Assembly: GCF_039555335.1 (NCBI RefSeq) | Contig: NC_092646.1 | Span: 24,058,893-24,122,892 of the forward strand | DNA length: 64,000 nucleotides | Direction: 5' to 3' | Source: Amphiura filiformis | Lineage: Eukaryota; Echinodermata; Ophiuroidea; Amphilepidida; Amphiuridae | Shown: in pieces, positions 2,904 to 50,500 of the stretch | Position numbering within the stretch: position 1 is the stretch's first letter | How the letters are laid out: each line of letters begins with the position of its first letter | The notes under the pieces: generated by a model | Database searches by the model: none | What the model was told of the DNA's origin: nothing | What the model saw: the letters and a program-made list of their open reading frames with translations, nothing else | Made by a program: the position numbers and the translations under genes

Positions 2904-5900
2904 CTACCAAAGCCCCTTCGCCTCATAGAATAAAAAATTTTTGACCGTGAGCAGGCACATGTGGTTTTTACCTGGAATCCCAATTAAAACAAGATCAAAG
3001 CTACTGGCCCAAACTTTAGGTTGATCTAGTATTGAATGGTCTAATTGGTATAACATTTGATGGGGTTGAAAAGAAGACATCCCACTTGTATCCTGTTTAT
3101 CATACCAAGTAAGAGTTCTATTGACATCCTCAGCGTGGTCATTTACACATAGCGTTTCTTCTAAATGAGTACTTCTGCTCTCCAACTGCTGGTTTGAAAG
3201 ATGGAAATTAAACACTCCTTTCATGGAAACTGCTTTGCCATCATTTGTCATTTCATACTGCAGTGCATTTTTTACATCTCCAATTTTAACATACAGGTTG
3301 GCAATATGTGTGCGGCCTAAAATTGTCTTCAGATGGTTTCCCAAAAGATTGCCGTCAATGTCCTGAGCTGTTTCTAACATTTGAATGCTCCTATGATATA
3401 AATGCATATTTTCCAGTAGTACCCCAGCAAATAGAGCTGCGTTTGAAGTCAGTGCACAGTCATAGATTTCATTTGTTAAATCCACCTGGTTCTTGTTAAT
3501 AATGTTCTTGGAGGAATCAATATCCCGACATGCATTCAATACTCCTGATTGAATACGTATTTGAACAGCTTGACACAGACTCTCAGCTGCTTCGTTCATT
3601 TCTTGCATCCTATACTGGGTATATCCAATGTGGATTATGATATGGCTAGATCTGTAGGGATCTTGTTTGACTAACCTGAAAGCAACATCTAATGTATCCA
3701 AACTATCTTGATAGAAGCCATGATGGTACAACAGCAATCCTAGTGTATGCATCATATTTGCCGTTCGTATTTCAAACTGTGATAACTCGCCATCGTATTC
3801 AGGTTGAATTTGTTTCACAGATGTAGAACCCAGGTGGCTCTGTGGTAGTTTTTCAATGTATTTCTCAACTGTAGATAGTGCTTGTGTATTGTCTTGTAAG
3901 GTTTCTTGTGCAAGTTGTATAACAAGCTTTGCAATGTTTTTATGATCAGTGTAATAGTTCAAGTCATTTTGCTGTTTTAGGAAGAAAATGGATGGTGCGC
4001 AGAGAAGGACATTTGTGAGCCTGTCATACCAGTTCAATTTATTTTCCTGATCGAAGTTGCTACCATAGATCAAACTGTTTCCATAATGACTGCCATGAAG
4101 ATTTGAATATATTTCAAAGGCTTTTTGGTACAGACTCAGAGCTTTGTCAAACTGTTCTGTGTTCTGGTAAAGCGCTCCAATATAGCGATATATTTCGGCT
4201 CTAAGTTCATCTTTGCCAAAAAAATCAAAAGAACTTAGTGAATTTTCAAACTCTTGTAATAGTAAATCACCATCTTTGATTTGAAGATTTGGAGTTGCTA
4301 CGATATTTTCTATATGTGTCCAAAACATGTTAAGCACTGCATTATGATGTTTATTGTAATCAAAGAAAACAATAGAGCTAGTCGTTTGTATAAGGGACCA
4401 CCATGGCTTCTCTTTGGCAATCAACTTGCTGAACTCTTGAAGAATTGGGTGCATTTCATACCGCTTGTGTCCAGTTGCGAGGTGAAATTTCTTTAAAAGA
4501 TTGTAGTCTACAAGTGGATATAGATCAACTTTTTCTTTGAGGGTCAATTTTACGATGACATTGGCGGTCATTTGATCAAAAGATGTTGGTATCGTTCCTA
4601 ATGCAATAAAGGTTTCTTGAATATCTGGATCAAGACCATCAAACAAAGTTTTGAGGAATTTGAAATAGTTATTGTAGTCTTCAGTGTCATTTACGATTAC
4701 TAAGATTGACAATTCTTCAAGCTTTCCTAGTAATTCATCTTCTTCATAGACCCCTCTTTGTAACAGACTTCCAGTTAACTCCAACAATAAAGGAACTCCC
4801 CTGATTTTCTTGCATATTTCTAACACAGAGCTTGCTTGTGAATTTGGTGAGAGTTTCTGCAAAACCTGTACTGACTGTGCTTCTGACAAGGGTTCCAACT
4901 TCACTGGATATATTGACACCCCAATGATATTAAAATCTTTTCGCGAAGTAGCAAGAATGTTGATTTTGTTGATGGCCAGACACAATTTTGTTACTTCAAT
5001 GAATTCTGACTTTGATATAGAGTCTAAAACTTGTTCTGTGTTGTCAAAAATAAGAAGTGTTTGGCATGTTGATATTTTTCTTATGTGTGTTTTAAATTCT
5101 TGCAATGAAGCAACATCAATTTCTGATTCAAAATCAAGGGCTAACGTTATTTCCTTGTACATATCTTCTCTAAGATGATTAGAGTTCACACTAAGTTGCT
5201 TAAAGTCCACAAAAGCCACTTGAAAATTGTGTCTTCTCATAAGCACTTGCCCAATTGCGATCGCTGTTGCAGTTTTTCCAATTGCTGGGGGACCAGTTAT
5301 GGTGACCATTTGATAAGTTCCATTACTTAGAACACTAACAGCTCTGTCTATTTCCATGTCTTGACCAACATAATAATTGGGCTTCAGTGATTCAGGAAAA
5401 TAGGTTCCAAACCTATTACAATATGTTGTAGTGACAGGAAAATCCATTGTGTGATAGTATTGTTGTATTGACTTACATAATACCATCACACATATTGGTG
5501 CCAAAATGAGAACTAGTAGCAGAAGAAGCTTGTGGTTATACCGCTCAATTTTGCACAACTTCTCTTCCACCACCTTCATGTAATCTTCAGGTACTTTCAT
5601 AACACCAGTTCTAATATCGTCCATCAGATTTTTCACACTGGCAGGACAATTCAAACCACACACACATACTTCAATATCTTTGTAGATGGCTTGAAACTTT
5701 GCGTTACTAAGAGATGCTGTTGAAGGATGGCCAAAGTATTCATTTCTTATTTGCCGTAGTTTGTCTATGTGTTGTTTTAACACTGCAGGGAGGTTTAAAG
5801 TTCCAGAATACAGTAACATGAAAAAAAGTGCAGTCGGATCCCAGTCACTACGATTACCTGACTTTGGAACTTTAGATTTGTTGTTCTTCCAGGTTCGACC

Positions 5901-6071
5901 ATTTTTCAAAATCTGTATGAAGTACTGGAGACTGTTGTTGTCATCTCTCCAGGGATTGTTGGGGTGCTGCTTGTCCCATTCTTGTTTGAAAACATTCCGT
6001 AGTTGTTCAGTGACAATTTCAAGAAGAATAAATGCAAGCTTGAAAAAGTTCCTGTTTTTGGGTGTATCCAT
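2904..6071 (-). CDS. HEPN (DZIP3-like)-transmembrane-NB-ARC-TPR protein, putative STAND immune receptor
   Basis: One uninterrupted frame of 1055 residues. I start at the ATG at 6071 (context tcaccATGg) rather than the upstream ATG at 6137. A strong acceptor (pyrimidine tract then CAG, exon edge at 6087) sits just 5' of it and implies an intron in the 5' UTR. Order: residues 1-175 all-helical with 'IRNEYFGH' (R109 to H115, the HEPN RNxxxxH signature, DZIP3-like type); 182-199 a hydrophobic helix, probably transmembrane; 230-440 a STAND NTPase with P-loop 'GPPAIGKTA' (260-268), Walker B 'LLIFDN' (339-344), 'ATSR' (374-377) and 'GVPLLL' (425-430); then a winged-helix-like stretch; from about 620 TPR-like helix pairs such as 'LGLLLYHHGFYQDSLDTL'. 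HEPN domains of this group are linked to RNA cleavage or signalling, and NB-ARC/TPR to ligand-triggered oligomerisation. Immune function is inferred. No frameshifts, so the gene looks intact. Confidence 0.85.
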   Translation of the reverse strand: MDTPKNRNFFKLAFILLEIVTEQLRNVFKQEWDKQHPNNPWRDDNNSLQYFIQILKNGRTWKNNKSKVPKSGNRSDWDPTALFFMLLYSGTLNLPAVLKQHIDKLRQIRNEYFGHPSTASLSNAKFQAIYKDIEVCVCGLNCPASVKNLMDDIRTGVMKVPEDYMKVVEEKLCKIERYNHKLLLLLVLILAPICVMVLCKSIQQYYHTMDFPVTTTYCNRFGTYFPESLKPNYYVGQDMEIDRAVSVLSNGTYQMVTITGPPAIGKTATAIAIGQVLMRRHNFQVAFVDFKQLSVNSNHLREDMYKEITLALDFESEIDVASLQEFKTHIRKISTCQTLLIFDNTEQVLDSISKSEFIEVTKLCLAINKINILATSRKDFNIIGVSIYPVKLEPLSEAQSVQVLQKLSPNSQASSVLEICKKIRGVPLLLELTGSLLQRGVYEEDELLGKLEELSILVIVNDTEDYNNYFKFLKTLFDGLDPDIQETFIALGTIPTSFDQMTANVIVKLTLKEKVDLYPLVDYNLLKKFHLATGHKRYEMHPILQEFSKLIAKEKPWWSLIQTTSSIVFFDYNKHHNAVLNMFWTHIENIVATPNLQIKDGDLLLQEFENSLSSFDFFGKDELRAEIYRYIGALYQNTEQFDKALSLYQKAFEIYSNLHGSHYGNSLIYGSNFDQENKLNWYDRLTNVLLCAPSIFFLKQQNDLNYYTDHKNIAKLVIQLAQETLQDNTQALSTVEKYIEKLPQSHLGSTSVKQIQPEYDGELSQFEIRTANMMHTLGLLLYHHGFYQDSLDTLDVAFRLVKQDPYRSSHIIIHIGYTQYRMQEMNEAAESLCQAVQIRIQSGVLNACRDIDSSKNIINKNQVDLTNEIYDCALTSNAALFAGVLLENMHLYHRSIQMLETAQDIDGNLLGNHLKTILGRTHIANLYVKIGDVKNALQYEMTNDGKAVSMKGVFNFHLSNQQLESRSTHLEETLCVNDHAEDVNRTLTWYDKQDTSGMSSFQPHQMLYQLDHSILDQPKVWASSFDLVLIGIPGKNHMCLLTVKNFLFYEAKGLW

Positions 6072-6150
6072 GGTGACAAGTAATTTTCTGCAGGAAACAT
6101 GAAAAAAGAAAAGAAAATGTACAAAAGTAACTTTCAAAATATGTATAAAT
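6072..6150 (-). promoter_or_regulatory. 5' UTR splice acceptor of the STAND gene
   Basis: On the minus strand a run rich in T and C ends in 'tttcctgcag' at 6088-6090, 17 bases before the chosen start codon. It would explain why the open frame continues upstream without sequence resembling the HEPN family. The first, non-coding exon was not located. Confidence 0.5.
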
Positions 6151-6827
6151 AATGATGAAATGAGACTCTGATATATGCTTCACCCTAACAGGGTATTTTT
6201 GCAAGATCTGAGAGGATCAGAAATAAATGATAGAAGCTTAGGGGTGCACCATTTGATTGCCGGGATGGGGGGCATGGGAGTTTTTTGTAAAAAAAAGTTA
6301 GGGTCAGGCCTATGTTTAGGGTCGTCGGGTTACGCCAATCAAACAATTTTTTTAGGCCTTAGCGCCTCTCCCCTAATTAGCAAAACATTGACAAAAAAAT
6401 AAGAAACCTATGCAATCTTCTCGTGTATCTTTCTGATGATTTTCATATAGTTTAATTATCAGTTGGGGTGCCATTCACTGTATAGTAAATGAATTGAAAG
6501 CATTCCCTCCTCATAGTCTTCAATTTTTTTCTGGTAATTTAATTAAATTTTAGCATTAAGTTTTTACATTTCTTGTACACAATAGCCAAAGATTTTTTAA
6601 ACTGTTTTAGGGTAAGAAAATACTCATTTTCACAATGTATGTACTTAATATTTCAAAAGCAGTACAAAAATGAAATGTCACCAAATAATAAAAGTGAACG
6701 CCTATATTTGACTATATTTTAGGCAAGTCGGAGGTATTATTTTTCCAGTCTGGGTAATTTTGCTTAAATAATACAGTTTATTTCTGCAGGGTAATACATT
6801 GATATTATAGGAAATGAGTCAAGGAAT

Positions 6828-13500: not shown

Positions 13501-16500
13501 CTAAAATGAAATCAAACTTGTTCTTCTTTATTTCAGGGATGGTTCAGCTGTTGAGATAGTAGGTCTATGTAAGGCAGCACTACACTGGCTAAGTCAACTC
13601 AATGAGGAAGGAAAATATCCTTATAGTGACTTCAGTGTTAGAATTGATGGTAAGTTTGTGATAGTCTGTTTATTTGTGTGGGTGGTCCAAGACTTCAGCT
13701 CATATTCTGGAGGTTGCACAAAGTCGTGGGTTCAAATCTCTGCAGCATCAACGTGTTGTGCACTTAGGCAAGGCTCTCCACTTCTTCACCCCTATTGCCT
13801 CTCCCCACCCAGATGTACAAGTGGGTACCGGCTTTATTCAATGCCAGGAAGGTAACAGACTCACTGTGGAGGAGGTGTAGCGATGCCCCGCTCACAGCAG
13901 CATTAAATGGAGACGTCTGACTTGATCGCTTCAAAAGAGAGATGAGGCTCCAGTCTGTAAACACAGGTTCCTCCCCATTACCTTTAATGTTTGTGGGGGT
14001 GAGTTTGTGTGTGTGTTTAGTCATGAAATGAAATGATATTAATTGATATTAATCACCCATTTTACCTGTATTCTAATCGGGTATAACAAGTAGCCATAAA
14101 CCAGTTTAATGAAGTCCATTGTCTCGTCCATAGCAGACAACACCCTGGTATGCACAGAGTATTCCCAAGCCTTGCACACCGACATCGCCTGGCTAATAAT
14201 TATTTGGTGCAGCAGAGACATTAAAATGAATACACGGGATCCATACACGTGAATTGCTATGCACGATTTTGATATCAGATGAAAATCTTCGGATACTGGG
14301 TTACAAAATGATGAATATCTCCCGTAAATGAATTTTTCTCAAGAAACCAGATGTGGTCTCATACACTTGAAAATATGTGTTGAACAGATATTATAGTCGT
14401 TAGCGTGCGCTTTGAAAATTGGCCGCGTGCGCTTTGAAGTCAAAATTTGACCAAAACTCTCAATTTTATATTGCGTTGGTCCTATATGGACTACAGCGCG
14501 CAGCAGGCTATAGCGGCACTCACTCAAGTGGAGAGAGTATAACCATTGACCGCAATGTCGTATACAAGCTTGCTCACAGAGCGAGAAATCAATTACCCCG
14601 GATTGTCAGTAGCCTTAGTCAAGTCACTTCGCTAATAATATGCATCTCATAAGGTCCGAATAAAATGGTCATAGGTGGCTGTGGATTCAACCTACCATGG
14701 CGATTTCTACTATGAAGATATCGGGGCGATGTCACTGTGCCTTGATAAACGGTGGTGCTCATGAATTATTCATTGAGCCATAGATTAATAAACACAAAGA
14801 TTGGAATGTTCCATGCCTGTGCCCTCTAAGCATACTTGAATTCAGCTGACGCCAGTACAGCGTTCGATCAACTTGTGAGCGCTTACGCTCGAACTCTCTT
14901 TTGTGTACACCTGCGCTATTTATGCTATTTTTGAGTTCGCTGACGCACCCCTTACTTATCGTCGAACCCCATAAGCAGCATGCTTACCTTTCATGGTATG
15001 CATTGTGAGCATTCCCAAGCCTGATAAAATGGTGGTGTTCATGAATATTCATTGCACTCCCAAACCTGATAAAATGATGGAGCTCATGAATATTCATTGC
15101 ATTCCCAAGCCTGATAAAATGGTGGAGCTCATGAATATTCATTGCATTCCTAAGCCTGATAAAATGATGGAGCTCATGAATATGCATTGCATTCCTTAGC
15201 CTGATAAAATGGTGGAGCTTGTGAATATTCATTGCACTTCCAAGCCTGATAAAATGGTGGTGCAGAGCTCGTGAATATTCATTGCATTCCCAAGCTTGAT
15301 AAAATGGTGGAGCTCATGAATATTCATTGAGCATTCCCAAGTCTGATAAATTGGCGGAGCTCGTGAATATTCATTGCACTCCCAAGCCTGATAAAATGAA
15401 GGTGCGGAGCTCGTGAATAATCATTGCATTCACAAGCTTGAGAAAATGGTGGAGCTTGTGAATATTCATTGCACTATGAAGCCTGATAAAATGGTGGAAA
15501 TCGTTACTTTTGAATTAAAGTACTGCCACAACCTAATTTGCACACCTCATATAATACATAAATCCTTTATATTCTTTTACCTGATATTACCAACTGATAT
15601 TGTAACTGATGCCACCATATTTATTTTCTTCACTAGGCAAGCCATGCAAACTGACATACAAAGAATGGGATGCCAAGATCAAAGCACACTTTGAGCAGAA
15701 CTTCTGGGTGCCACCTGATGCTAACAAGCAAGCCAATAAGCTTATCAACAAACGGGGCATGTACAAGGACAGTGTAGGAGCCACACAGTTCTGGGCGGAT
15801 TATCAACTCAGGCCAAATTATCCGATAGCTATGGTTGTGGTAAGTATTTTTCTTGGGTAATCAGTGAAGTCATTTCTTACTGTTTGGTAGAGATATTTTT
15901 TCATGAAATGGGCTATACCAGTTGAAATCCATACACCCCCTATGGAAGACATGACCTCAATCTTATACACAGGGAGTGTGAATTTCAAATAGGTTTGTTC
16001 TGGACGGATTATAAACTCAGGCCAAATCATCCAATAGTTATTCCTTGTGTAATCATTGAGGTCATTTTCTCACTGTTTTGTAGAGATAATATTTTTCATG
16101 TAATTGGCCATTCCAGTTGAAATCCATACACCCCCATATGGAGGACATGACCTTAATCTTCCACACAAGGAGTGTAAATTTCAAATGGGGTTACCTTAAT
16201 GGGGGACTTCATTTCAAATCTACACTCCCTATGTGGGAGATTAAGGTCATGTCTACCAGAGAGGGTGTATGGATTTCAAGTAGAATTGCCCAATAGAAAG
16301 TAAATAAGGATTGCCTCAATTAACATATCTAAATCCTGCTGCCCAAAACAATTGAAAAAGTACTGCCCTCTATCAGTCTGATTCAGTTACTCACCAAATC
16401 CAAGATGGCGATTGAAAGATTCATGTCTTTCCACGCAACCCAATGTCTGATTTTTGGTGTTAAAATGCCCCCTCAATCAGTATTATTGTACAATATATTA

Positions 16501-19500
16501 ATGATTGAAGTAAATTATACCATAATTTGTCATGGGGGGGGTTCATTTGCTTAAAAATGAAGTATAAGTAGTCAAACCAGGACTCAAATGCAGTGCTCCC
16601 ATGTATTTTTTCTTTCTATAAACTATCAATGTTTGTGCGAATCCACATAGATCAGGTTTGACAAGAATCTTTGTGTGAATCGATTCATGGATATGCATTG
16701 GATTTCTGAGCCTGTGCATGACTAGACCCATAAATTTTCCCAAGTCCCTTCAACATTGACCATTCTCCTCTGTTTGAATCATATTTAGGCACCTGAGTTG
16801 TTTGTACCAGAGCATGCATGGATAGCCCTGCAGACATGTGAGAAATACCTGCTTGGACCACTAGGCATGAAGACACTGGACCCAGAGTAAGTTTTATAGA
16901 GAGAGCATGGCACACTGGTTCAATTCCTAGCAGTGGGCGACTTGCTGGGCGTATTGGCATGGAAAAAGTCTGAATTTGGCTGCTGTATGGCTGGTAACAT
17001 CATTCTGTAGATTTCTGTGTTCTCGATAATTCCCTGGAATAAGTAATATTACTCCTTAATAATTCTCACTGAATAAATAAGAGAAACATGATATGGAAAT
17101 CTTTGCCGTGTATAGCAATCTATTCCTCCCCAATGCCACAAATGTACTTCATATCTCAGTTGGTTAGAGAATTGGTCTAGAATCCCAGTGGTTATTGGTT
17201 CAAATCCTGGTTAAGGATGGTTTTTCTTAAACATGAAGTAGGTATGTACAATTTACATTTACCAATTTATTAGCAGTAACTGTTGTTCCTTCAAAAATTT
17301 AAGGCGACGTTAGTGTGTATTTGGCTGGTTGCAGTATCGAATTTGGGTATACAGGGTGCACGACTTATAAGTTCCCCCCTAAATACTTTTTTAAATAAAT
17401 TGAAAAATATTTGATGAAATGCAAACTTGTAAAAAGACATGTGTAGCCTTATTTGTTTTACACTTATGGAACAAATTATAGCGTCACACATCATTGCGTT
17501 CAATCACAATGGTTCATTATGTAAAAAAAAACCCGTTTTATTAAACTGTTAAAAGTTGCATCTCAGTCCATAAGAGTCAACTCTCAAACAATACAGCAGG
17601 CCAGGCCTATTCATGTGTTTGTTAAAGAAAACCTGACTGCTATGGGCTCAGATGCAACTTTTAAAACTGCCTCTTTTCTTACATAATTAGCCATTGTGAC
17701 TGAACGCAATAATGTGTAACGCTATAAATTGGTCCACAGGAGTAAAACAAAACAAATAGGGCTATACATATCTTTTTACATTTTTACATTTTGTAAAATG
17801 TTTTCGACTTATTTTAAAAACTATTAGGGGAAACTTATCAGTTGTACACCCTGTATATACACACACATAAAAGGGCAAATTGTTGCCACACCTGCAGCAC
17901 ACCCATGTAAAAGCACTGAGATCACCTTCAATTCATGATGGGACAAAGTTTAGTTGGTATACTGAGTGTGATATATGTGCATTGTACTTTTTGTTTTGCA
18001 GGGATTGGGGTTATGTTGGTGACTATGATAATTCCTATGATGGACCTGATGGGAAGAGAGCTAGAGGATTCAACTATCACCTGGGCCCTGTAAGTCTATT
18101 TCTGTGGGGGGGGTTGGGGTGTGTATGTGCGTATGTTTGCAGGGATTGGGTTTATGTTGGGGACTATGATAATTCATATGATGGACCTGATGGGAAGAGA
18201 GCTAGAGGATTCAACTATCACCTGGGCCCTGTAAGTCTATTTCTGTGGGGGGGGGTGTTGGGGTGTGTATGTGCGTATGTTTGCAGGGATTGGGTTTATG
18301 TTGGTGACTATGATAATTCATATGATGGACCTGATGGGAAGAGAGCTAGAGGATTCAACTATCCCCTGGGCCCTGTAAGTCTATTTCTGTGGGGGGGTGT
18401 CGGGTGTGTATGTGCGTATGTTTGCAGGGATTGGGTTTATGTTGGTGACTATGATAATTCATATGATGGACCTGATGGGAAGAGAGCTAAAGGATTCAAC
18501 TATCCCCTGGGCCCTGTAAGTCTTCTGTGGGGTGCACACACTTGCACTTCATATTTAAACCATGTCTAATATGTTTGCGAAATACATCCTATCATACTCG
18601 ATACCGTAAAGATTCGCTATGAGCTCCCGTGATATAACTGGAATTTTAGGCACAACTTAAAAGTGCCCTCAGGTAAAAATCTCATCAGGAAATACAGGCA
18701 CGGAACCTTAATTCTTGTTGGGATTTTGAGATGAGGGAGCTCTCTCTTTGTACATGTAATTTATCCCAAGGTGAAGGAGCCCATGTGCGCCATTAGGCGA
18801 ACCTTTACGGTATTTAACATCCACAGTTGCTAGGTTAAAGTCCATACCCACAAAAATATACAAATATACACAAATAAAATGGAGGAAAACGTCCTCGGTT
18901 GTCGATTGAGTACGGATTCATGATTGATGATTGACAAAATAAAATATGAATGAATGAATGAATGAATGAATGAATGAATATGAATGAATTTTAAATAGTC
19001 CACTGCTTATTTGCAGCTTTATTTTCTGAATGTAAACTCAAAATTTACCCATTTCCAGCTCATTTGCTTCTGCAAGTGTAGTAATCTAAGAATAAAAATT
19101 CCCCAATTATTATTTCAGAGATAAGTTTTCAGAGATGAATTGCTCTCTTAGGCATGTTTCCTGTCATTCTTGGGAAATAAACTAAATACCATCTTGTATT
19201 CTGACACACAGGAATGGGTGTGGCCAATTGGATACTTCCTACGTGCAAAGCTCCACTTCTCTCGTCTCCAAGACAAGCAGCCGGATCTGTTCAGGGAGAC
19301 GGTGACCGGTGTGCAGAAGATACTAACTAGACACCACAAGGAGGTCTCTACATCAGTATGGCGTGGTATACCAGAACTGACCAACAGCAAAGGAAAATAC
19401 TGCAAGGATAGCTGCCCTACGCAAGCCTGGTCAATGAGCTGCATTCTAGAACTTCTGTATGATCTTGACAAGCTCGTCAAAAGTAATGTGGGAGGTAAAT

Positions 19501-19502
19501 AG
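10387..19502 (+). CDS. AGL: Glycogen debranching enzyme, C-terminal (glucosidase) part, multi-exon, 5' part outside the window
   Basis: AGL removes glycogen branches by 4-alpha-glucanotransferase then amylo-1,6-glucosidase action in the cytosol. Only the glucosidase end is present. Exons: 10387-10522, 13537-13649, 15637-15839, 16789-16886, one of four copies (18002-18089, 18143-18230, 18287-18374, 18428-18515), and 19212-19502 ending TAG. All have AG/GT borders and matching phases. Diagnostic stretches are '[17 protein letters not shown]', '[15 protein letters not shown]', '[18 protein letters not shown]', '[12 protein letters not shown]', '[19 protein letters not shown]' and '[15 protein letters not shown]', in the same order as vertebrate AGL. 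From family knowledge the Asp in 'TWMDK' and the Glu in 'PEW' are the likely catalytic pair. That mapping is inferred. Upstream exons, including the transferase half, were not found, so they should lie left of base 1. Confidence 0.93.
10970..13215 (-). mobile_element. Degenerate CR1/L2-type non-LTR retrotransposon in an AGL intron
   Basis: Minus-strand reading gives, in order, an AP-endonuclease-like part with '[16 protein letters not shown]' and '[13 protein letters not shown]' (about 12800-13000), 'GGIGILFKQ' and '[11 protein letters not shown]' (12182-12766), a linker (11806-12192), the reverse transcriptase start with '[10 protein letters not shown]' and 'NYRPLPISS' (about 11633-11850), then the C-terminal end with '[20 protein letters not shown]' (11068-11526). 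The core RT block between 11526 and 11633, including the catalytic aspartates, is missing, and the frame changes several times. The 3' end shows a (CTTA)n tail at about 10970-10985, typical of this superfamily. Dead copy. Confidence 0.85.
13537..13649 (+). CDS. AGL: AGL exon with [10 protein letters not shown]
   Basis: Acceptor 'tttatttcag', donor 'gtaagt'. It completes the split Arg codon from the previous exon and leaves in phase 1. It encodes '[19 protein letters not shown]' and onward to 'VRIDG', a close match to the family. Confidence 0.92.
13665..13960 (+). mobile_element. tRNA-derived SINE
   Basis: A tRNA-like head with a B-box-like 'gggttcaaatctc' (about 13728-13740) is followed by a body with 'cacttaggcaaggctctcca' and 'aagtgggtaccgg', which is characteristic of tRNA-SINEs in aquatic animals. 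It lies just after an AGL donor site, in the intron. The ORFs here (13658-13880) are read-through of the SINE. Confidence 0.6.
14995..15500. repeat. Minisatellite, about 11 units of 44-51 bp
   Basis: The unit resembles 'attcccaagcctgataaaa' + 'tggtggagctcatgaatatt' + 'cattgc'. Starts of 'ctgataaaat' fall at about 15020, 15067, 15111, 15155, 15200, 15245, 15296, 15343, 15387, 15438 and 15482. It lies in the AGL intron 140 bp before exon 15637. Both strands are open in places because the unit lacks stops. These are not genes. Confidence 0.9.
15637..15839 (+). CDS. AGL: AGL exon with [13 protein letters not shown]
   Basis: Acceptor 'ttcactag', donor 'gtaagt'. The Gly codon is split with the previous exon and the end is in phase 0. 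It encodes '[19 protein letters not shown]', then '[20 protein letters not shown]', then '[10 protein letters not shown]', all conserved family blocks. Its last part and donor region are copied, in decayed form, at 15998-16100. Confidence 0.93.
15910..16292. mobile_element. Two MITE family A copies flanking a copied piece of AGL exon
   Basis: A half-copy of family A (15910-15997) is followed by about 100 bp resembling the end of the preceding AGL exon plus its intron start. A full hairpin copy then runs from about 16106 to 16292. The order suggests the segment 'exon end + intron start + MITE' was tandemly duplicated. Confidence 0.7.
15998..16100 (+). pseudogene. Decayed duplicate of the AGL exon 15637-15839 tail
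   Basis: 'ctggacggattataaactca' then 'ggccaaatcatccaatagtt' parallels the exon's 'ctgggcggattatcaactca' then 'ggccaaattatccgatagct'. The following intron sequence ('gtaatcattgaggtcatttt') parallels 15860-15880. The donor GTAAGT is lost ('attccttgtgtaatc') and no acceptor precedes it, so it cannot act as an exon. Confidence 0.75.
16789..16886 (+). CDS. AGL: AGL exon with [11 protein letters not shown]
   Basis: Acceptor 'catatttag', donor 'gtaagt'. Enters in phase 0 and leaves with 2 bases of a codon. It encodes '[20 protein letters not shown]' followed by '[12 protein letters not shown]'. The outgoing phase fits only one entry into the 88-bp exon array that follows. Confidence 0.92.
17148..17215 (+). 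repeat. tRNA-like sequence (pseudo-tRNA or SINE head)
   Basis: 'ctcagttggttagag' resembles an internal A box, and 'ggttcaaatcc' 35 bases later a B box. The acceptor stem does not pair well and no CCA-ready end is seen. I therefore read it as a degenerate tRNA-derived repeat, not a functional tRNA. Confidence 0.45.
17351..17855. mobile_element. MITE with 'tacagggtgcacga' ends
   Basis: 'tacagggtgcacgacttataagttcccc' at the left mirrors '...ggggaaacttatcagttgtacaccctgta' at the right. Inner arms ('cattgcgttcaatcacaatg' with 'cattgtgactgaacgcaat') also pair. TA borders suggest a Tc1/mariner-type non-autonomous element. It sits in the intron just before the AGL exon array. Confidence 0.75.
18002..18515 (+). 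CDS. AGL: Four tandem copies of one 88-bp AGL exon
   Basis: Copies at 18002-18089, 18143-18230, 18287-18374 and 18428-18515, each with 'ttgcag' before and 'gtaagtct' after, separated by 53, 56 and 53 bp. Each encodes '[16 protein letters not shown]', then K or R, 'GFNY', then H or P, 'LGP'. Copies 1 and 2 have His as in the vertebrate family, 3 and 4 have Pro. Copy 4 has Lys for Arg, copy 1 Gly for Val after 'DW'. Each enters with one base completing a codon and leaves in phase 0. Using one copy keeps the frame, whereas splicing two together shifts it and meets a stop at once. The units (141, 144, 141 bp) are multiples of three and the spacers are open, so retaining all spacers also stays in frame. 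Spacers are nearly identical, so the duplication is recent. Confidence 0.9.
18597..18822. mobile_element. MITE with 'ataccgtaaagattcgc' ends
   Basis: The left end 'ataccgtaaagattcgctat' is mirrored by 'gcgaacctttacggtat' at the right. 'gagctcccgtg' and 'ggagcccatg' lie inside the arms. It lies in the intron before the last AGL exon. After it, a (gaat)n microsatellite runs at about 18947-18985. Confidence 0.65.
19212..19502 (+). CDS. AGL: AGL terminal exon, starts at the EW of GPEW
   Basis: Acceptor 'ctgacacacag', phase 0. The first residues '[16 protein letters not shown]' join the array's 'LGP' to give the conserved 'GPEW' block. It then encodes '[15 protein letters not shown]' and '[18 protein letters not shown]' and stops at TAG 19500-19502. 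Length and C-terminus match the family. Confidence 0.93.
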   Translation, partial: EWVWPIGYFLRAKLHFSRLQDKQPDLFRETVTGVQKILTRHHKEVSTSVWRGIPELTNSKGKYCKDSCPTQAWSMSCILELLYDLDKLVKSNVGGK

Positions 19503-19529: not shown

Positions 19530-20110
19530 GAGTGAGTATAGATAGCTGCCATTTGTACTTTGGGCCTAGGTTGAATAGCTGTCCTCTGTACTTTGGGCCG
19601 AGGTCATATTTATTGTATGTGTTCATTTGCATCAACATTAGTGAAGATGCATCAAGGCAGCTATGGTTACTTATAGCTAATCATGCGGTAGTTAACATGT
19701 GTCCATGCACAAGTGGAAGGAATAGGTGTGTGAGTATAGATAGCTGCCCTGTGTATTTTTGACTTGGGTTGAATAGCGAAGTCATATTTATTTATGTGGT
19801 TATTAATATTATTTTGTATCAACATTAGTGAAGATGTTTCAAGGCAGCTATGGTTACTTACAGCTAATCATGCAGTAGTTAACATGTGTCCATGCACAAG
19901 TGGAAGGAATAGGTGTGTGAGTATAGATAGCTGCCCTGTGTATTTTTGACTTAGGTTGAATAGCGAAGTCATATTTATTTATGTGGTTATTATTTTGTAT
20001 CAACATTAGTGAAGATGTTTCAAGGCAGCTATGGTTACTTACAGCTAATCATGCAGTAGTTAACATGTGTCCATGCACACTTGAATGGAATATGTGTGTG
20101 TGTAATATGA
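19530..20110. repeat. Three tandem units of about 190 bp after the AGL stop
   Basis: 'gtgagtatagatagctgcc' recurs at about 19530, 19729 and 19914, each followed by 'caacattagtgaagatg', 'caaggcagctatggttactt' and 'catgtgtccatgcacaagtg'. It begins 28 bp after the stop codon, so it may lie in the 3' UTR. The open frames in it come from the repeat. Confidence 0.85.
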
Positions 20111-20444: not shown

Positions 20445-20625
20445 AGGATTCAATCATGTTTCACCGTTGTTCATCACCGCTTAACAACGATGCGACGCGT
20501 CGTCTGCGTGGTTTATTTTCGCGAGGGCAGCTTTAGCTGCCCGAGCGAAGTAAACCACGCAGACGCTACCGGATGCTTGAAGTTGTTAAACGGTGATGAA
20601 CAACGGTGAAACATGATTGAATCCT
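20445..20625. mobile_element. Near-perfect hairpin element with GC-rich core
   Basis: 'aggattcaatcatgtttcac' at the left is the reverse complement of the right end. Arms continue through 'cgttgttcatcaccg' and a GC-rich core where 'ctgcgtggttta' faces 'taaaccacgcag', around a small loop 'cagctttagctg'. The whole is about 180 bp with no coding capacity. A different CG-rich patch follows at 20860-20950, and a genomic A-run after two AATAAA motifs lies at 20745-20797. Confidence 0.75.
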
Positions 20626-31723: not shown

Positions 31724-34700
31724 CTAGCTACAGCATTGTTCCAAACTCATTTTTTTTCTTTTTCCACTGGACTCTTCAGTTGTCTTACGATCCTCTTCAT
31801 CAGCAAGTAATGTATCTCTGACATCTGTTATGATGTATCCCAGTAAATTGCTGCCTTTCCACATTTCTTTGTTCTCCGCAGCAGGGTTATTGACAGAGAG
31901 TCCTATTCCCCAGATTCTGTCCCTGGGACTAGCTTCAACTAAAGTAGTGCCTTTGGTTGCTAGAAGTGTTTTTTTGATGTCAGCATTCTGTGAGAACTGT
32001 TGGTAAATAATTCAGACAGAAAGAATTAGATACAAGTAAATGGTCTATAGAAATAAGCATTCGCACCAGAAGTGGGGAGAGGGTACATGTAGGGGGATAC
32101 ATCCCCCCGAATTTTTTCCATGGGGGAGGGGACATCCCCTCTTAAAACCATAACAGAAGAACAAAATAAAGCAATAATTTTATAAATTGCCCTGTGCATC
32201 TCTTTTTAGCCCCAAAAACAGTTTTTTGGATCAAAATAGGGTAAAATTACATTTTTACACTCTTCATGCACAATGGCCCCATCAAATAGCAATTTTCACC
32301 TTAATTTTGGGCTACAATAGTCTGAAATCAAATTGTCCTGTGTGTTTCATGTGCAAATGTACCAGTAATACCAGAACAAAATATGATCTTCCTTTTAAAT
32401 GTTTCAGCCACCACTGGAAAAAAGCACTCATGGTAGAGCTAAAACAGCCTGTGTATTCTGTCATTTGGGATTGCTGAATTGCTCATCTTTCGCTCTTACT
32501 CCAATGCAAAAGTCTAGACTGAAAGTTTGCATTGGAATGTATATGGAAATAACAATTTTGTTGATTCTTTCAGGGTTGATTTTGACACACAATGAATTTA
32601 AATTTTCTTGAGAAAAGTTGATAGATTATCAAACTAAACAATGTTTGAATTTTAATTCCTTTTTTCATGAAAGGATTAGGCTGGTGTTTCAAATTCTGTT
32701 AACTTTCCCATTTGCCACAACAGCAATTTTTCATTCCACTGGTCAAGCCCGATCCTGACTCCACATCGCAGTGCGATGCGATGCTATGCTATAAAAACTA
32801 ATCTGAGCCAGGTTTTTACGAGCTCAGCGGTGAAAATTCTCATCGCTCGGTGGAAATTTTGGTCCACGCTGCGATATCGCAGCCGTGCATGCTTCTGATT
32901 GGCTGCTGGAAAATCAAGGTCGGTAGAATGACCATAAAAGGAGATGCAGACCCCACATGCTGCAATGTTTTAAAAGCATCGCAGCATCGCATCGTGCTGC
33001 GAATTGGAGTCAGGATCGGGCTTCAGAGGGAGGTTGGGTAAATAGCCAAGTTATGACAAATGACACTCTGACTACCAGAATAATATTGATCTTTTTTATT
33101 CATTGCTATTTTTGTCCACATGGGCTTCTCATGAATCTTAATGGTTTAAATGTTTATCATATATATCACCATGACAATATTTATGAAAAAGAATATTTTT
33201 CTTATATACCTTTCCTAGGTTTCCTTTCTTGACAATTTTTTCACGGTTCTCATTCCAAATTTTCTCATCAAAATTCCTGACTTTTCTGCCAAAGGCTTTC
33301 ATCTGACCAGGTTTATGGGCCTGCAGAATCAGTTCAGCATGTTCTTCATCATTAAATAACACTGAAAAGAAACAAAAGAATAAGTTGATCAAATTAAAAT
33401 AATGAAATGTGTTTAGGGCACAAACAAAGTTTTGGTGGAATCCTATTAAACGAAAGCAAAAAAGACAACAGTCATTGATATATACAGAAACCGAGCTTTA
33501 ATTTGATACCAAATTTATTTTGCCAAGTATTGCAGGGACGCCAGAAATGACGCATGAAGTAGGTAGAATTCGCACATTTCTATGGAACGCTTTAATAATA
33601 ATAGTGTGCACCCCTTGTGAAGGTTTCAAGGGCCTTGCAAGTATATTATTTCAAGCTGCGGATGTTGCTAAGTGTGTAGGTTTGTGCTGAGTTCAGCTAC
33701 AACTGGCCTATTTAGCTCTATTTGATGTGATCCGATTCTGATGATTCACCAGTGGAAGCGAAATCAGAAATTACAGCGCTATTAATCCTCTGGAAAATAT
33801 GCACTATATAAATCCCAAATTTATATTATTATTATGATGAGTCTTCATCGGTAGCTGTCCAGCTGCCCTGGCTGCTTCAAGCAAAAACGTCTGAACCAAC
33901 AATGGTCTGGTGCAATCAAGCTATTTAAAGCCATATTATAACATTTGCTGAGAAGAACGCCCTCAAAATAATTTTAAATTCAGGTTTTTACACGATTGTA
34001 ATGTACTTTAGTAAACAAAGATTCTCTGCAAAAATCAAGACTTTAGGTGCTGTATTTTCGTCAAAATCCGTGATTTTGAATTTAAACCGATGGAACCGTC
34101 GTTTTATTATTACGATAGAAATATTAGTTGAACGCATATGTGTTGTTCATGACACAGTACTACGTACACAGCGTGCGGGACACACACATATGCCAGAGGA
34201 TCGTACTGTATTACAACCGCCAGAGTAACATGCATTGGCGCTAGTAGTAAATTCCAATTTTCTTTGCTTTACCTCACTTGTTCGGCTCAAAATTAAAAGG
34301 GGACATATCTGACAGTAAAAGCTAACATTTTATGGAAAATAAATACTAATCTATTTTGTAAAGAAACGTTATAATATGGCTTTAAGGCGATATAATACCC
34401 CTATTTTCATCAGTACCCCTCTTCTTTTTTTTCTTGCAAATTTATTAAGTACATATATATGTTTATCACCTCATGTCCTGAACTTATAAAATATATCTAC
34501 ATATAAAGTGACTTTCAACCATTTTAGTAAGTAATTTTAGCCCTATATATTTTTTGTTTACTGTAACCTAGTAACTCAGATCTGTGTTTCATAACAAACC
34601 ATAATTTATTCTTTACAAAATGTTCAAGTAGGGTACATGAATAGAATACATTAAATCCTTTGTTATACTCTCTATAGAAAATCTATAGTGGTGCATGCAA

Positions 34701-35777: not shown

Positions 35778-36554
35778 TTTCTCTCTCACAGCTCAGTTTA
35801 ATACCATTACCAGCTTGCACTGCTGAAGAAAATCTTGAAAATCATATTTCAATTGAAATTGTAAAATTTAATATCATCAGAATCTAGCCACAATTTGAGA
35901 TGAGCTTATGGTACGTATATCAACCTTTGAGTGGTTTTTATACAGTCCAGAACGTTTGTGTAAATTGCAAACATGCTTGCAATATTATCCAACGCGAAGA
36001 CTTTTCATCATATCTATTTATACACCATCAAACACATGATTGTGTTTGTGCAATGCAATGTTTACATTCTCTTCCGGGTTTCGATATTTAGCCTCATAGT
36101 CATTGCCACAAATAAAGAATTCGTACATCTTTAAATAGACGGACTGTTTGTACAGTACGAGATTGCTAAAAGTTAGGTTTGAGACTAAACCGGGAAAATC
36201 CATCTCGTTACTACTCTAAATCCTCTAAGCGGACGTCCAATGATTCTGTGCGAAGTATGTTGTTGCGATCATAAGTTGCAGGAAAGAGGCTATCAGAGCC
36301 AAAACAGAAAAACGCCGCGAAAAATACACCCACACAAGTCAAGGTAAGCTTACAGAATTCAGATGCCCAGATTTACTAAACTTAATATCTAAAAAAATGA
36401 GCAATCCTTGGTTTAGGCTTTTACCATTATTATCTCAATATATCTGGCATTAAAGCCGCAAAAATTTACATGCAAGCTGAGTTAAGCTTACAGAAATTTT
36501 AATTTAGATTAGACCATCGACCACCCAGTCTCCCAGATTTTTTAAAGATTTTTT

Positions 36555-37720
36555 ACCAGTCCAGTCGGTGTCAATAATGTAAATGGAGGCCAGTCATCAT
36601 GGGCTGATGTACATAGTGGTATTCCTCAAGGAAGTGTGCTGGGTCCAATCCTCTTCGTCATCTTTATAAATGACCTACCAGATGTAGTGGAAAGCTTCGT
36701 GAAAATATTTGCAGACGATACTAAGGTATTCACCCACATATTAGAAGATGATGATTGGAAGAAGCTCCAAGAAGACCTGGACAGGCTTAGTGAATGGTCG
36801 GATACCTGGCAACTCAAATTTAATGTATCCAAGTGCGGAGTTATGCATTATGGAAGCAAGACTGAGAACCACACTTATACAATGTCAGAGGAAGGCACCA
36901 AACGTGATCTTGAAGTTATAAAGGAAGAAAAGGACCTTGGTGTAAAATTTGACCCTTCCTTGTCCTTCAGTAAACATGCAGCCATGGTAGCTAATAAAGC
37001 CAATAGAATGGTAGGAATCATCCGTCGTACCTTTGATTTCATGGATGAGGAGATTCTAAAGATACTCTACAAGACATTGGTAAGACCACATCTTGAATAT
37101 GCCAACAGTATCTGGAATCCATTGTATAACAAAGATGCCCAGATAATAGAGAAGGTACAACGAAGAGCCACCAAGATTGTTCCAAGTTTAAAGGAGATGT
37201 CTTACGAGGAGAGATTAAAGAAACTGAAGTTACCAACTCTAGCGTACAGAAGGATAAGAGGAGATATGATACAAGTTTTCAAGATCATGCACGGAATCAA
37301 TGACATGGAAAAAGAAACCCTATTTAGGATGGATGATAGTAAGACAGGCACAAGAGGACACACCTATAAGATCCAGAAACAGCACACTAGGCTCAACCTG
37401 AGGTCACACACCTTCAGTTCAAGAGTGGTCAACCAATGGAATGCCCTTCCAGAACATGTTGTCTGTGCTGAAACCATAAACAGGTTTAAAACCGGAGTCG
37501 ACAAAGCATTGGCCAAGGAGTACAACAAGTTTACGCATGGTGTTGGTCAGCTCTGGCAGGCAACGGTGTATTAAGTCCTCTTCAGCCAATACCCTTTTTA
37601 TGTAATGTGCAGTGAGTGTTATGATGTACTAAGGTGGGCATAATAAGGTTTTTCTACCTTCCCAAGAGCCCGACAAGACAGGTGAATACAGGTGAATACA
37701 GGTGAATTAATTTGTGGCAT
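36555..37720 (+). mobile_element. 5'-truncated non-LTR retrotransposon (CR1/jockey superfamily RT)
   Basis: The frame from about 36561 to the TAA at 37572-37574 encodes the second half of a reverse transcriptase: 'VHSGIPQGSVLGPILFVIFI', the catalytic 'KIFADDTKVF', 'WQLKFNVSKCGVMHYG', 'LVRPHLEYANSIWNP', 'YEERLKKLKLPTLAYRR' and a C-terminal 'NQWNALPEHV'. No stop or frameshift interrupts the 1 kb, so it is a fairly young insertion. The endonuclease and RT fingers are absent (5' truncation, usual for LINEs). A short tail of three 'acaggtgaat' units at about 37680-37709 marks the 3' end. It lies between the NADAR and SKP2 genes. Confidence 0.9.
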
Positions 37721-44500: not shown

Positions 44501-47500
44501 ATTCTATTCTATTCTATTCTATTCTATTATATTCGAAACTCATACTCCCTCTGTGGTTTTGACAATAACTCAATTATATCATGGATTCTTTTGCCTGCCT
44601 TGCAGATGAAATTATGAACTGACCTGAACTATCATCCTCTGAACTTTTGCCTGCCTTGCAAATGAAATTTTGAATTGAACTGAACCCAATTAAATAGCAT
44701 CCTCTGAACTATTTGTTGCAGATTCTTTTGCCTGCCTTGCAGATGAAATTTTGCTGCACATTTTAAAGTGGTTGCCTCTGACAAAGTTATCACACTGTAG
44801 CAGAGTCTGCAAAAGATGGTATAGGCTTGCGTAAGTATAGATAGTGGTTTATTATGAACGACAGAAACTGCCTGTGAAGGAGGCTACATAGCGATGTTGC
44901 TCACTCCAACTTGGAGTGAAATTCAATTCCAGAAAAACCAACACTTAATTTTAAGTTTGTCAGTATAATTTAACGGTAAATCAAGTAAGTAACTTCCACT
45001 CTGCAGACTTAGAAACTTGTTTGATTTCACTGACTATCTGTGAATAGTGATCGAAATGTACACAACACCAATGACAGCAATCATTGTGGTACCGACCCAC
45101 AGAATAGACTTTTTCCCCAGACATCAAGTGTGTCCAGCATTCAAGTTCTTTGCGCCCAAATGTAATAAGATTACTGTTGCATGACACATGTGTAGGCCTA
45201 CTGTGGCTAGCACACAATACAAATGTACATAATAACAATGATAATTAATTATTACTAATTATAAGTTGCTTTTTTCAGGTTTTAGTAACCAACTCTAAAA
45301 TCAGACATTTATCATGAAGTCTTCATAATCTCTGTATACACCAACAGATTTGATGAGTTGCTATGGCGTCGCATAGATTTATCATCCAAGCAATTTTTCG
45401 CTGGTATTCTTGGCAATATCCTACAGAGAGGCCCAGTAGCTGTTAAACTCTCTCGGGCGAAGATAGAAGAGCCAGTGTTCTCACTTAACTACAGACACAA
45501 AGCAAAAAAGCAGTGCAACAAATTGAGGAACGGGTAAGCCATCTGTGGGTAATTCCTGTTGAAATTCATACACCCCCTATGTAACACATGACCTTCATCT
45601 CCCACACAGGGGGTGTAGATTTCATTTGGGGTCACCCATTTAGGTGTTGCCTGCTTCAAAATGGGTTATTCCAGTTGAAATTCATACACCCCCTATGAAA
45701 GACATGACCTTCATCTCCCACACAGGGGTGTAAATTTCAAATGGAGTCACCCATTTAGGTGTCGTCTGCTTCAAAATGGGTTATTCCATTTGAAATTCAT
45801 ACACCCCCTATGGAAGACATAATCATAATCTCCCACACAGGGGTGTAGATTTCAAATGGAGCCACCCATTCAGTGTCGTCTGCTCCAAAATGGGTTATTC
45901 CATTTGAAATCCATACACCCCCTACTGAAGACATAAGCTTAATCTCCCACACAGTGAGTGTGAACTTCAAATGGAGTCACACATTTAAGTACCCCATTTA
46001 AAATTCACACTCCCTATGTGGAAGATTAAGGTCATGTCTTCCATAGGGGGTGTATGGATTTCAACTGGATCAATGAGCAACTTATGAGCTTTCCACTGAT
46101 ACTAAAATCTCCATTTTGAAAACTTTTGATGGTGAAAAATTGGATGGTGTGCAGTGTTATTTTAAGCATTTTGCTAAAGGGGTCTATCTTTTCAATTGTG
46201 AATTTTTCATCTGAAGGGGTATTAATAAGCTAAATCGGCATTCGAAGTTTGCAATGCATTGTGGGACAGTTTTTGCATTTTTAGGACACTTTGTCCTTTG
46301 ACCTTTCACAAAAATTGTTTTTTGTACATACAAAATATAATCAAAAAAGTTTTACTTGAATAAAAACAAATCCGAAAAATATATTTATTACATAAATTAA
46401 TTATTTAAATATTTTTAATTGTAACATTATTAGAATAATAAAAAAATAAATAATAATTAGAGTAATTTTCCCGAAATGTCAGAGGTCAAAGTGTCCTAAA
46501 AGTGCTCTCAAAAACCGGAAGTCACAATGGCGATTGGGCTTATTAAACATTGCACAGAGGTTTTTTTATTTGAAAAATGTGTCTCTCAATTGCAGATTAC
46601 AAGGAGGGGGGAAGGGGTACGGACCAAAAATTTTTACTAGTAAATTCCACTAGCTACCGTCATAATCTCATGGTTCATTCTCATAATACAAAGGGTATAA
46701 TTTCGACATCTATCACTACCAGGTGAAAATATCGTTGGACTATCCTCTTTGCTTTTGAAGGGGTATGGAAAGTGTGTGAACGCGTAAATACACATGATTG
46801 TGCATTAAAAGTAAACCCTGATGGCGTGGGGTGAGACTGGATCAGGTCATGGTCCTTTAATTGTGATTTGTGCATTTCCCACAGATTCAAAATTGTTTTT
46901 ATTACATTTATTTGTACTTGTCTTATTTGATTTCTCGTTGTTTCTTTCTTGTCTCCAGCAAACAATCCATTACCACAAAAGTGCAATATCTAGACCTATC
47001 AGCCTGCGACGTTTCAACAAGCACCCTCCAGGAGATCATTAAATCTTGCCCGCCCCTTCGTAAACTGAGCCTTGAAAGTTGCATGGTGAACGTCAGTGTG
47101 CTAACATGCGTCGGCCAAAAAGCGCAAGAATTAGAAGAACTGAACTTGAGCATGTGCGAAGGGGTCATAGACTATGGGATGATGCAATTACTGGTCAACA
47201 CACCAAAGTAAGTACATTAAACTTTGGGCTATTCCATTTAAGAACCATACCCCCTATGGAAGACATCATGATGACCTTGATCTTCCACACAGGGAGTGTG
47301 AATTTCAAATGGGGTACCTGAATGGGTGGCTCCATTTGAAATCTATCTACACCCCCTGTGTGGGATATTAAGGTCATGTCCTCCATAGGGGGTGTATGGA
47401 TTTGAAATGGAAAACCCTATTGGGATATTCTATTTAAAAAAACACACACCCCCTACAGGAGATTTTGTAATTCCAACCAAATTCAATAGTTCTTGCCATT

Positions 47501-50500
47501 GCAGGTCCCAAAATTTTCATCCGAACAACAGTGGAAAATGCATGTAAGGTTTTGGCATTCAAAACTAAATTTCTAAAACAAAGGCAAAGTTGTGAAAAAA
47601 TCCAACAGAATTTCAAAGATATTTATTGTTTTCAGATGGATTTAACATAACATAACATAATAGTGAGTGCTTAACAAAAGAATATATACAGGTACATGAA
47701 CCATAAACTAATACAAACAATACAAAGCATAATATATGTCATGACAATTGGATAATTAAGAGCATGATAAAAACTACTTGAACAGGTATGTTTTCAGATT
47801 TGCTTTGAATAGCTGGAGTGTACCAGCTTCCCTGATGTCACGAGGTAGATAGTTCCATATCCGGGGTGCACATGTTTCAAATGATCACCGGTACGTGTCT
47901 TGGTTTTTGGTTAAGATAGAAGTGTTTTGTCTGATGAACGAATGGCATAAACAGATGTTTTAACCGAGATCAGTTCTTGAAGATATGATGGAGATTGTGA
48001 ATGGAGGCATTTGAACACGTAGACCAGTAGTTTAAAACTTGATACGTTCGCGAATTGGTAGCCAATGAACATTTAACATGAGTTGCACAAATTCTAACGG
48101 GCTTTTATACTAAAAGGCTTATAGTTCAACTGGAATAAGGGGTACTAGCTTCTTCTAGATACTGCTTAACATTCCAGGTGGAAGATAAACAAGCAGGATT
48201 TTGGGCATGCGTAAATTGTGATTAGTCTCTTACATGTATGTTAGCTTCCTTTGATTTGAAGTAGCTGTGTAGTGCCTCTTTAAACTGATCTGGATTGACA
48301 ATATCAGTTATGGTGTGGGGTAAATCATTCCAGTCTCTTACTGTCCATGGTACATAAGAAATTTGTAGATGTCGTTGCGAGATTGGAGTTGTGTAAATGA
48401 ATTTGTGTTTGAGCCGGCGACAAGTACAAATGGACTGGCAGTGCCAGGTGGACCCCTATGGCTTTGTGCAGGATGGTTAGCATTGGAAAGCACCTCCCAG
48501 TCAAGCTGTTTCATTAGGTCAGTGATGCTCGTCTTCCAATCGGAAGTCGTTGCATCCTTGCTGCTCGCCTCTGGATCTTGCCCACTTTCTTGATCAGCTC
48601 ATTGGTGTGGGGATCCCAAACCCCAGAACAGTATTCTAGGGTAGGCCTTACCAATGCCTTGTAGGCGGCTTCCTTAGTATCTTTAATGAGCTTACGTTCC
48701 TGCGAATAAAACACAAATATTCAAATGGAATAGCCCATAGAATAACCTTGCATGCTCATATAGAATGATTACTTTAGAATAGGTATCTTCTGTGACCAAC
48801 CAGTGCATGGAAAGACAACGTTACTCACTAGTTTGTAATACATATTTTATGTTGCTAACCAGTGTTTGGAAAGACAACATTAGTCACTAGTTTGTATTAA
48901 TGCTTGCAGAAAGAAACAAACAAATGAAAGTTTGATTTTGCTAAGTTCATTCCGGGTCTATTATTCATGAATAGTTGTTTGCAATTAAGGGTATACGAGG
49001 TATTGTTGGTCGAAGCAGCCAAAAAAAATTGATTTTCATTATCTAGATCAATATATTATTGAAAAATAACACTTTGATGTTTTGCAAAAGTTCATTCTTC
49101 AAATCCTATAATTTGAAAACTTGCTTACTTTATTGTTGTTAATGAGTTATGTACGTTTTACACAAGTGTTGTTGTTTCAGCCCTCTTTACAACATAACTC
49201 AAGTGATATTTGAATTCTTCTACACGCTCGCTATAAATTGAGCAATGCAATTTTTGCTAAAGCTCACTACCATTCGCAAGATGCTGTGAACTACTTTTTT
49301 TCTGCTGCTTCGACCAACAATACATTGTATACCTTTAAGGCGCCCAAACGCTGTGAACAGCGTGATGAGATTAGGTGAGGTTAGGTGAATTACCAATTAC
49401 TGTGATGTTACATACTCTTAATTTACCACACAAATTACACACCATCAAGCTGTTACTTATCCCCCTGAGTACTACCTGCGGATCCAACATTGACTCTGAT
49501 TGGTCAATTACATGATATCTTAATTTTAATCACCAATCAGAATAGAGCTTTGCAAATAATTCACCCCAATTTATTTGTGTGGTGAAATTATTCTAACAAT
49601 GTTGCTGATTGGTCCAATTGATAATGAAAACTTCTTTTTGGCTAATCGGCTGGTAGTTCTCATGGGGTTATACATACATTCACTGTGGAAGTACCTTTGT
49701 AGGCGCCATTCAGTACCTCGTTGTATTTGTCTTGGGAGATATTATTTCCCTTTCTTGCAACTGTGTTTACTGTGTGGTCCCACATCAAGCTGTGGCGCAG
49801 TCTTTCCGACATAGTTCCACCGACACAGAATAACAAGTGTGTTGCCAGGTTCTAAGTATTTTGGTTGCTTTTGGATGTGAAACTGCAACAAATCTTCTTT
49901 CCAGTGCCTGATGATCTTCACCCCATCATTTTTGTGTACTGCGTCACGTCGGCATATAGCCTTCAGACCTGCTGATATGATCCCTTGAGCATATTGCCGC
50001 TTCCCGTCCACCTTAATTTGGACACTCTTTGTCTTTTTCTTCATCATCTTCAGCTTCTTTCCCGACGTTGTGTACTGCGTCACGTCGGCATATAGCCTTC
50101 AGACCTGCTGATATGATCCCTTGAGCATATTGCCGCTTCCCGTCAACCTTAATTTGGACACTCTTTGTCTTTTTCTTCATCATCTTCAGCTTCTTTCCCG
50201 ACGTTATGTACTGCGTCACGTCGGCATATAGCCTTCAGACCTGCTGATATGATCCCGCGAGCATACTGCCGCTTCCCGTCCACCTTAATTTGGACGCTTA
50301 TTGTCTTTTTCTTCATCGTCTTCAGCTTCTTTCCCGACGCAGATACATCTGTTTCACACGCCTTCGAGTAGAACCAAATACCTTTGGGAGCTGTGTCTGG
50401 TGTTACACCGATACAGTCGTAATGGAACCAGCTCCCCAGTGTGCAATTAAAGCGGTTGTTGCATTACAACATAGGGGAGCTGCTATCTAGTTGTGTTTTG

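Follow-up and report, generated by a model that had tools for sequence, protein, structure and literature searches.

The plus strand of the window, the 64,000-nucleotide stretch of Amphiura filiformis contig NC_092646.1 that was analysed, bears the 3′ part of a gene for glycogen debranching enzyme (AGL). This part includes an exon of the glucosidase domain at 13537-13649, bounded by AG and GT and aligning to human AGL (8zeq) from residue 1280, further exons at 15637-15839 and 16789-16886, an array of exon copies, and the last coding exon at 19212-19502, which runs from EWVWPIGYF to the stop codon. The introns upstream of the first copy measure 1987, 949, and 1115 nt; the third of these (16887-18001) follows the exon at 16789-16886, which ends in phase 2, and closes with CTTTTTGTTTTGCAG (75% pyrimidine). 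A final intron of 696 nt (18516-19211) follows the array. When the exons are joined through the first copy, the reading frame is open and the product has clear C-terminal glucosidase homology (PF06202, 215.2 bits against a cut-off of 21; human 8zeq, E 2e-91). The same product scores 303.7 bits against TIGR01531 over positions 1202-1443 of 1443, and the whole-protein cut-off of that profile (1399.55) is not reached because the query has only 263 residues. With the second copy in place, 252 residues align to positions 1280-1532 of human 8zeq and 1260-1522 of the C. glabrata GDE (5d06).

Within the array, a single AGL exon of 88 bp is present four times on the plus strand (18002-18515). Copy 1 (18002-18089; 29 residues), copy 2 (18143-18230), copy 3 (18287-18374), and copy 4 (18428-18515) are separated by spacers of 53 bp (18090-18142; G/T-rich, beginning with GT and ending with AG), 56 bp (18231-18286), and 53 bp (18375-18427), matching the four 88-bp exons spaced by 53-56 bp of the initial annotation. 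Copy plus spacer amounts to 141, 144, and 141 bp. TRF delimits the array at 17995-18523 (period 141, 3.7 copies), and its scores of 977 (period 141) and 995 (period 285), with 96% matches, indicate that the repetition is not due to chance. Only 5 of the 88 exon positions vary, pairwise identities being 95.5-98.9%, and all four copies are distinct, with private sites in copies 1, 2, and 4 and one site common to copies 3 and 4. The three spacers also differ from one another. They are far shorter than the other AGL introns seen, given the lengths of those introns, and with 23, 25, and 22 G residues they have the size and composition of ultra-short G-rich introns (<66 nt and G-rich).

A total of six TRF arrays with a period of at least 100 occur in the window (2729 bp, or 4.3%; one also fits a 45-bp unit), and three of the six are in or beside the AGL gene. 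The intron before the exon at 15637 carries a 45-bp tandem array (15009-15498; 10.6 copies, also with a 142-bp period), much of which is spanned by an open minus-strand frame (14984-15313). A 187-bp array of 2.8 copies (19599-20104) begins about 100 bp past the AGL stop codon, perhaps in the 3′ untranslated region. Elsewhere, three 136-bp copies (49932-50339) cover a lysine-rich open stretch on the minus strand, although their length is not divisible by three; no Pfam family was found at E 0.01 in the two frames covering these copies. A dispersed TTCCAGTTGAAATCCATACACCCCC-like repeat was seen by eye at 15900-16290 and 45546-45987, with a 115-bp tandem array at 45546, and a foldback element at 20445-20625 has 44-nt arms that are 98% complementary and 93 nt apart. 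Additionally, the minus strand holds an uninterrupted stop-to-stop frame of 1091 residues with NB-ARC and TPR domains (2904-6179) and a NADAR domain in an open frame (31724-32011; 79.7 bits), and a reverse transcriptase fragment lies at 36546-37574 (PF00078, 51.2 bits).

Splice signals and reading frames

The initial annotation described the splice sites of all four copies as intact. This holds for the GT and AG dinucleotides and for the donors, which are identical in the four copies (CCT/GTAAGTCT, with the slash at the exon end), but not for the acceptors of copies 2-4, which have neither a pyrimidine tract nor a branch-like sequence. Over the 20 positions before the AG, pyrimidine content is 0.75 in copy 1, the sole copy with a normal acceptor, and 0.55 in copies 2-4; the same count gives 0.80, 0.80, 0.70, and 0.65 for the four other AGL acceptors. 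As background, 40% of the 3435 AGs on the plus strand of the window reach 0.55 and 2.6% reach 0.75. It should be noted that these are simple counts rather than a model trained for this species, and that the acceptor of the last exon (0.65) is just two of 20 positions better than those of copies 2-4. Branch candidates were scored against yTnAy among adenines 12-59 nt before the AG in the AG-free zone, a scoring that covered the four copies, the exon at 16789, and the last exon. The best candidate in all three spacers matches 2 of 4 positions and none matches more, as against a candidate at 3 for copy 1, 3 for the last exon, and one at 4 for the exon at 16789.

Mid-spacer adenines, defined as those past the first 9 nt and before the final AG, are found at donor distances of 36-39 or 44-47 nt and acceptor distances of 18 and 10 nt; the yTnAy scoring covered those at 18 nt, which are not branch-like. 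A minimum of about 50 nt from donor to branch has been reported (PMC7969005, PMC5740500), and steric exclusion between neighbouring copies is plausible because the spacer adenines fall below this threshold. It is not certain, however, since splicing is reported in human for introns as short as 43, 49, and 56 nt (PMC8363638). The earlier proposal that the sites are too close for a spliceosome is made plausible by the adenine distances but is rendered uncertain by these human introns. Moreover, in a set of 15 introns validated at lengths of 37-65 nt, 12 were reported to be G-rich and 9 to have inefficient sites (PMC4463651). With regard to RNA structure, pairing of the docking/selector type between spacer 1, the one spacer covered by this test, and three AGL introns showed no excess (p 0.27, 0.57, and 0.22; 200 shuffles each). 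The fold of 17950-18560 was not unusual, with 17 of 20 shuffles folding at least as well (z +1.09), and Rfam gave no matches over the window at gathering scores.

Each copy is entered in phase 2 and left in phase 0, and all four single-copy products are open to the normal stop. In 11 of 11 products that join two or more copies, a TGA is met once 6 or 8 codons of the second have been read, so that the frame clash proposed initially is exact, and skipping all copies also breaks the frame as had been claimed, the resulting stop falling in the last exon. The stops of the 11 multi-copy products precede the last junction by 61-237 nt; under the usual rule of 50-55 nt for decay after a premature stop such products would be decay targets. 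By contrast with spliced joins, all six products that retain contiguous spacers are open, every acceptor-donor pair within the array keeps one phase, and full retention yields 300 rather than 158 residues. The in-frame gain of 142 residues claimed for spacer retention is therefore correct, but the openness on which the claim drew says nothing for retention: when spacer 1 was shuffled with its dinucleotides preserved, 5000 of 5000 sequences likewise lacked stops, which makes openness a result of composition and led to its rejection as evidence of coding. The divisibility of every unit by three would be expected by chance in roughly 1 of 9 cases, counting the unit length and the single length difference as separate events.

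Predicted consequences at the glucosidase site

The exon encodes the equivalents of C. glabrata Tyr1407, Tyr1424, and His1425 and of human Gly1448 (numbering offset from the gap-free alignment start), and at all four positions copy 1 agrees with both the human and the C. glabrata enzyme. Tyr1407 and Tyr1424 are reported glucosidase substrate contacts, Y1407F severely lowers glucosidase activity, and G1448R is a disease change (PMC4837477). His1425 hydrogen-bonds the inhibitor miglustat in the glucosidase site; the multiple-alanine mutant of the same study left out this residue (PMC13299489). Both tyrosines and the glycine are kept in all four copies, and the histidine is retained in copies 1 and 2 and replaced by proline in copies 3 and 4. 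Copy 1 has Gly at a position where copy 2, like human AGL, has Val, and copy 4 additionally carries an Arg to Lys change.

Products with copies 1-4 score 215.2, 215.7, 209.1, and 209.0 bits against Pfam GDE_C, 303.7, 305.2, 299.4, and 300.8 bits against TIGR01531, and 23.4, 24.2, 20.1, and 18.8 bits against the archaeal TIGR01561. The change of His to Pro is the largest step in all three profiles (6.6 bits in GDE_C and 5.8 in TIGR01531), including the archaeal one, which also drops, whereas the V/G and R/K changes shift the score by at most 1.5 bits in both GDE_C and TIGR01531; copy 2, not copy 1, has the best score throughout. The case for conservation of the histidine is built on three aligned sequences, two family profiles, and one structure paper, because none of the 18 and 21 pattern matches returned by a three-sequence profile from genome and viral contigs was confirmed as a relative. 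Copies 3 and 4, if used, would probably spoil the glucosidase active site. The suggestion that isoforms might differ at the active site is thus borne out to the extent that copies 3 and 4 lose the pocket histidine, but the loss points to impairment of the glucosidase and not to a variant of functional benefit. Three of the five variable sites are nonsynonymous, a share close to the 72% expected for random changes, and selection on the copies is neither shown nor excluded at five sites.

Origin of the array and competing readings

The reading that we favour, and hold to be somewhat probable, is that of a young minisatellite-like array whose unit contains a whole exon, in which copy 1 is the working exon and copies 2-4 are mostly silent. 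Tandem amplification would have acted on a unit of about 141 bp in which the complete AGL exon is flanked by its donor and by an acceptor that has been shortened. Past the splice site, the 5′ part of the spacer resembles the beginning of the intron that follows copy 4 (p 0.0005); its middle and 3′ part shows only weak matches, both to the intron ahead of copy 1 (p 0.08) and to the one behind copy 4 (p 0.11; 2000 mononucleotide shuffles for each test). The T-rich stretch before the AG is longer in the upstream intron. These observations are compatible with a duplication of the exon together with both intron edges, the acceptor tract having perhaps been shortened before the unit was amplified. 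Copy 1 is expected to be favoured in splicing because in no other copy is a pyrimidine tract accompanied by a candidate branch adenine; the upstream exon would then be spliced mostly to copy 1 and the copy 1 donor to the last exon, with copies 2-4 removed as intron. Transcripts in which copies were joined by mis-splicing would meet the TGA described above and probably decay. The frame and the short spacers would therefore make the array tolerable, rather than a switch. Several observations run contrary to the choice of copy 1. The donors are equal, so an exon begun at the copy 1 acceptor could end at any of donors 2-4, with spacers kept in frame. Copy 2 tops both main profiles and copy 1 has Gly against human Val, which may point away from copy 1. 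The silence of copies 2-4 is also open to doubt because, among unannotated human duplicated exons, those of higher identity were reported to have more split-read support (PMC9013439).

The closest likeness is to the mirages of amphioxus, which duplicate splice signals while regular splicing is apparently undisturbed (PMC3087553, PMC3902484). Compared with the Adh3, globin (BflGb6 and BflGb9), TnC, and PGBD5 repeats reported there, the AGL array similarly consists of minisatellite-like tandem copies that include splice signals, as in the sequence definition of a mirage, with near-identical neighbours and a similar unit size (150-160 bp in BflGb6, 157 bp in BflGb9, and 108 bp in PGBD5 exon 4). 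Globin mirages, however, duplicate one intron-exon boundary, whereas the AGL unit contains a whole exon with both sites; the array thus resembles a whole-exon version of a mirage. Among the matches listed from the open-licence literature, judged by title and the start of the abstract, none reported a tandem AGL exon or presented an array as a whole-exon mirage, although the PGBD5 repeats come near. The AGL spacers are also like human ultra-short G-rich introns in being 53-56 nt long and G-rich with poor branch and pyrimidine signals (PMC4463651, PMC8363638). Those introns have reported splicing evidence, whereas the spacers are known here from DNA sequence, and removal of a spacer with both neighbouring copies kept would shift the frame.

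A different reading, regarded as quite unlikely, is that the copies are regulated mutually exclusive exons, each used in some tissue, so that AGL isoforms would diverge at the glucosidase site, among them glucosidase-dead forms with the transferase kept. As in known mutually exclusive exons, the copies are homologous, of equal length, and in the same frame, their joint inclusion always shifts the frame (one of several mechanisms known to block it), and the donor-branch distance is possibly below 50 nt (PMC5740500, PMC6071210). They may accordingly be listed as candidate mutually exclusive exons by the sequence features used for that class (PMC5740500), and mutually exclusive splicing is reported often to follow tandem exon duplication (PMC6071210, PMC9013439). 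Frame thus blocks joint use as the initial annotation proposed, but the unequal acceptors, weak in copies 2-4, the failure to find competing RNA pairing for spacer 1, the ordinary fold, and a likely inactivating change of the pocket histidine in two of four copies all set the array apart from such exons. Human mutually exclusive events are, moreover, reported to be mostly ancient and their changes mostly conservative (PMC9741552). The more specific possibility of a functional switch between full enzyme (copies 1-2) and a glucosidase-dead enzyme with working transferase (copies 3-4), with frame and spacing enforcing the use of one copy, has only a slight chance of being correct.

Retention of all spacers, by which the array would be read as one 514-nt exon and 142 residues would be inserted ahead of the EW encoded in the last exon, also appears quite improbable. 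The frame is open from stop to stop across 17871-18569, a single phase is kept by all acceptor-donor pairs, and the spacers are near the lower size limit of introns; yet this openness follows from composition, the insertion would split a conserved GP from EW beside the pocket histidine, and the read-through frame reaches 16.3 bits against GDE_C, below the cut-off of 21, though a single exon is short. An exon of 88 nt is also more usual than one of 514 nt. Copy number in amphioxus arrays of this sort is reported to vary between assemblies or haplotypes (PMC3087553, PMC3902484), and the AGL array might likewise be an assembly artefact or merged haplotypes of a locus with fewer copies. We consider this unlikely, as all four copies and all three spacers differ, an observation with which merged haplotypes are still compatible. 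Finally, the array might act as a brake on AGL expression, a regulated share of transcripts being made decay-prone by joined copies. All 11 multi-copy joins have stops far enough upstream for the 50-55-nt rule, but such a brake requires that spacers of 53-56 nt with poor acceptors be spliced out, and it is very unlikely.

The AGL array amounts to a natural four-copy test of spliceosomal choice between nearly identical exons separated by 53-56 nt, set in a conserved metabolic enzyme whose frame punishes each joined pair. It also suggests a way in which a complete exon can be captured by a minisatellite while the gene stays usable, and such an exon array may be an early stage on the path to mutually exclusive exons, or one that leads no further.
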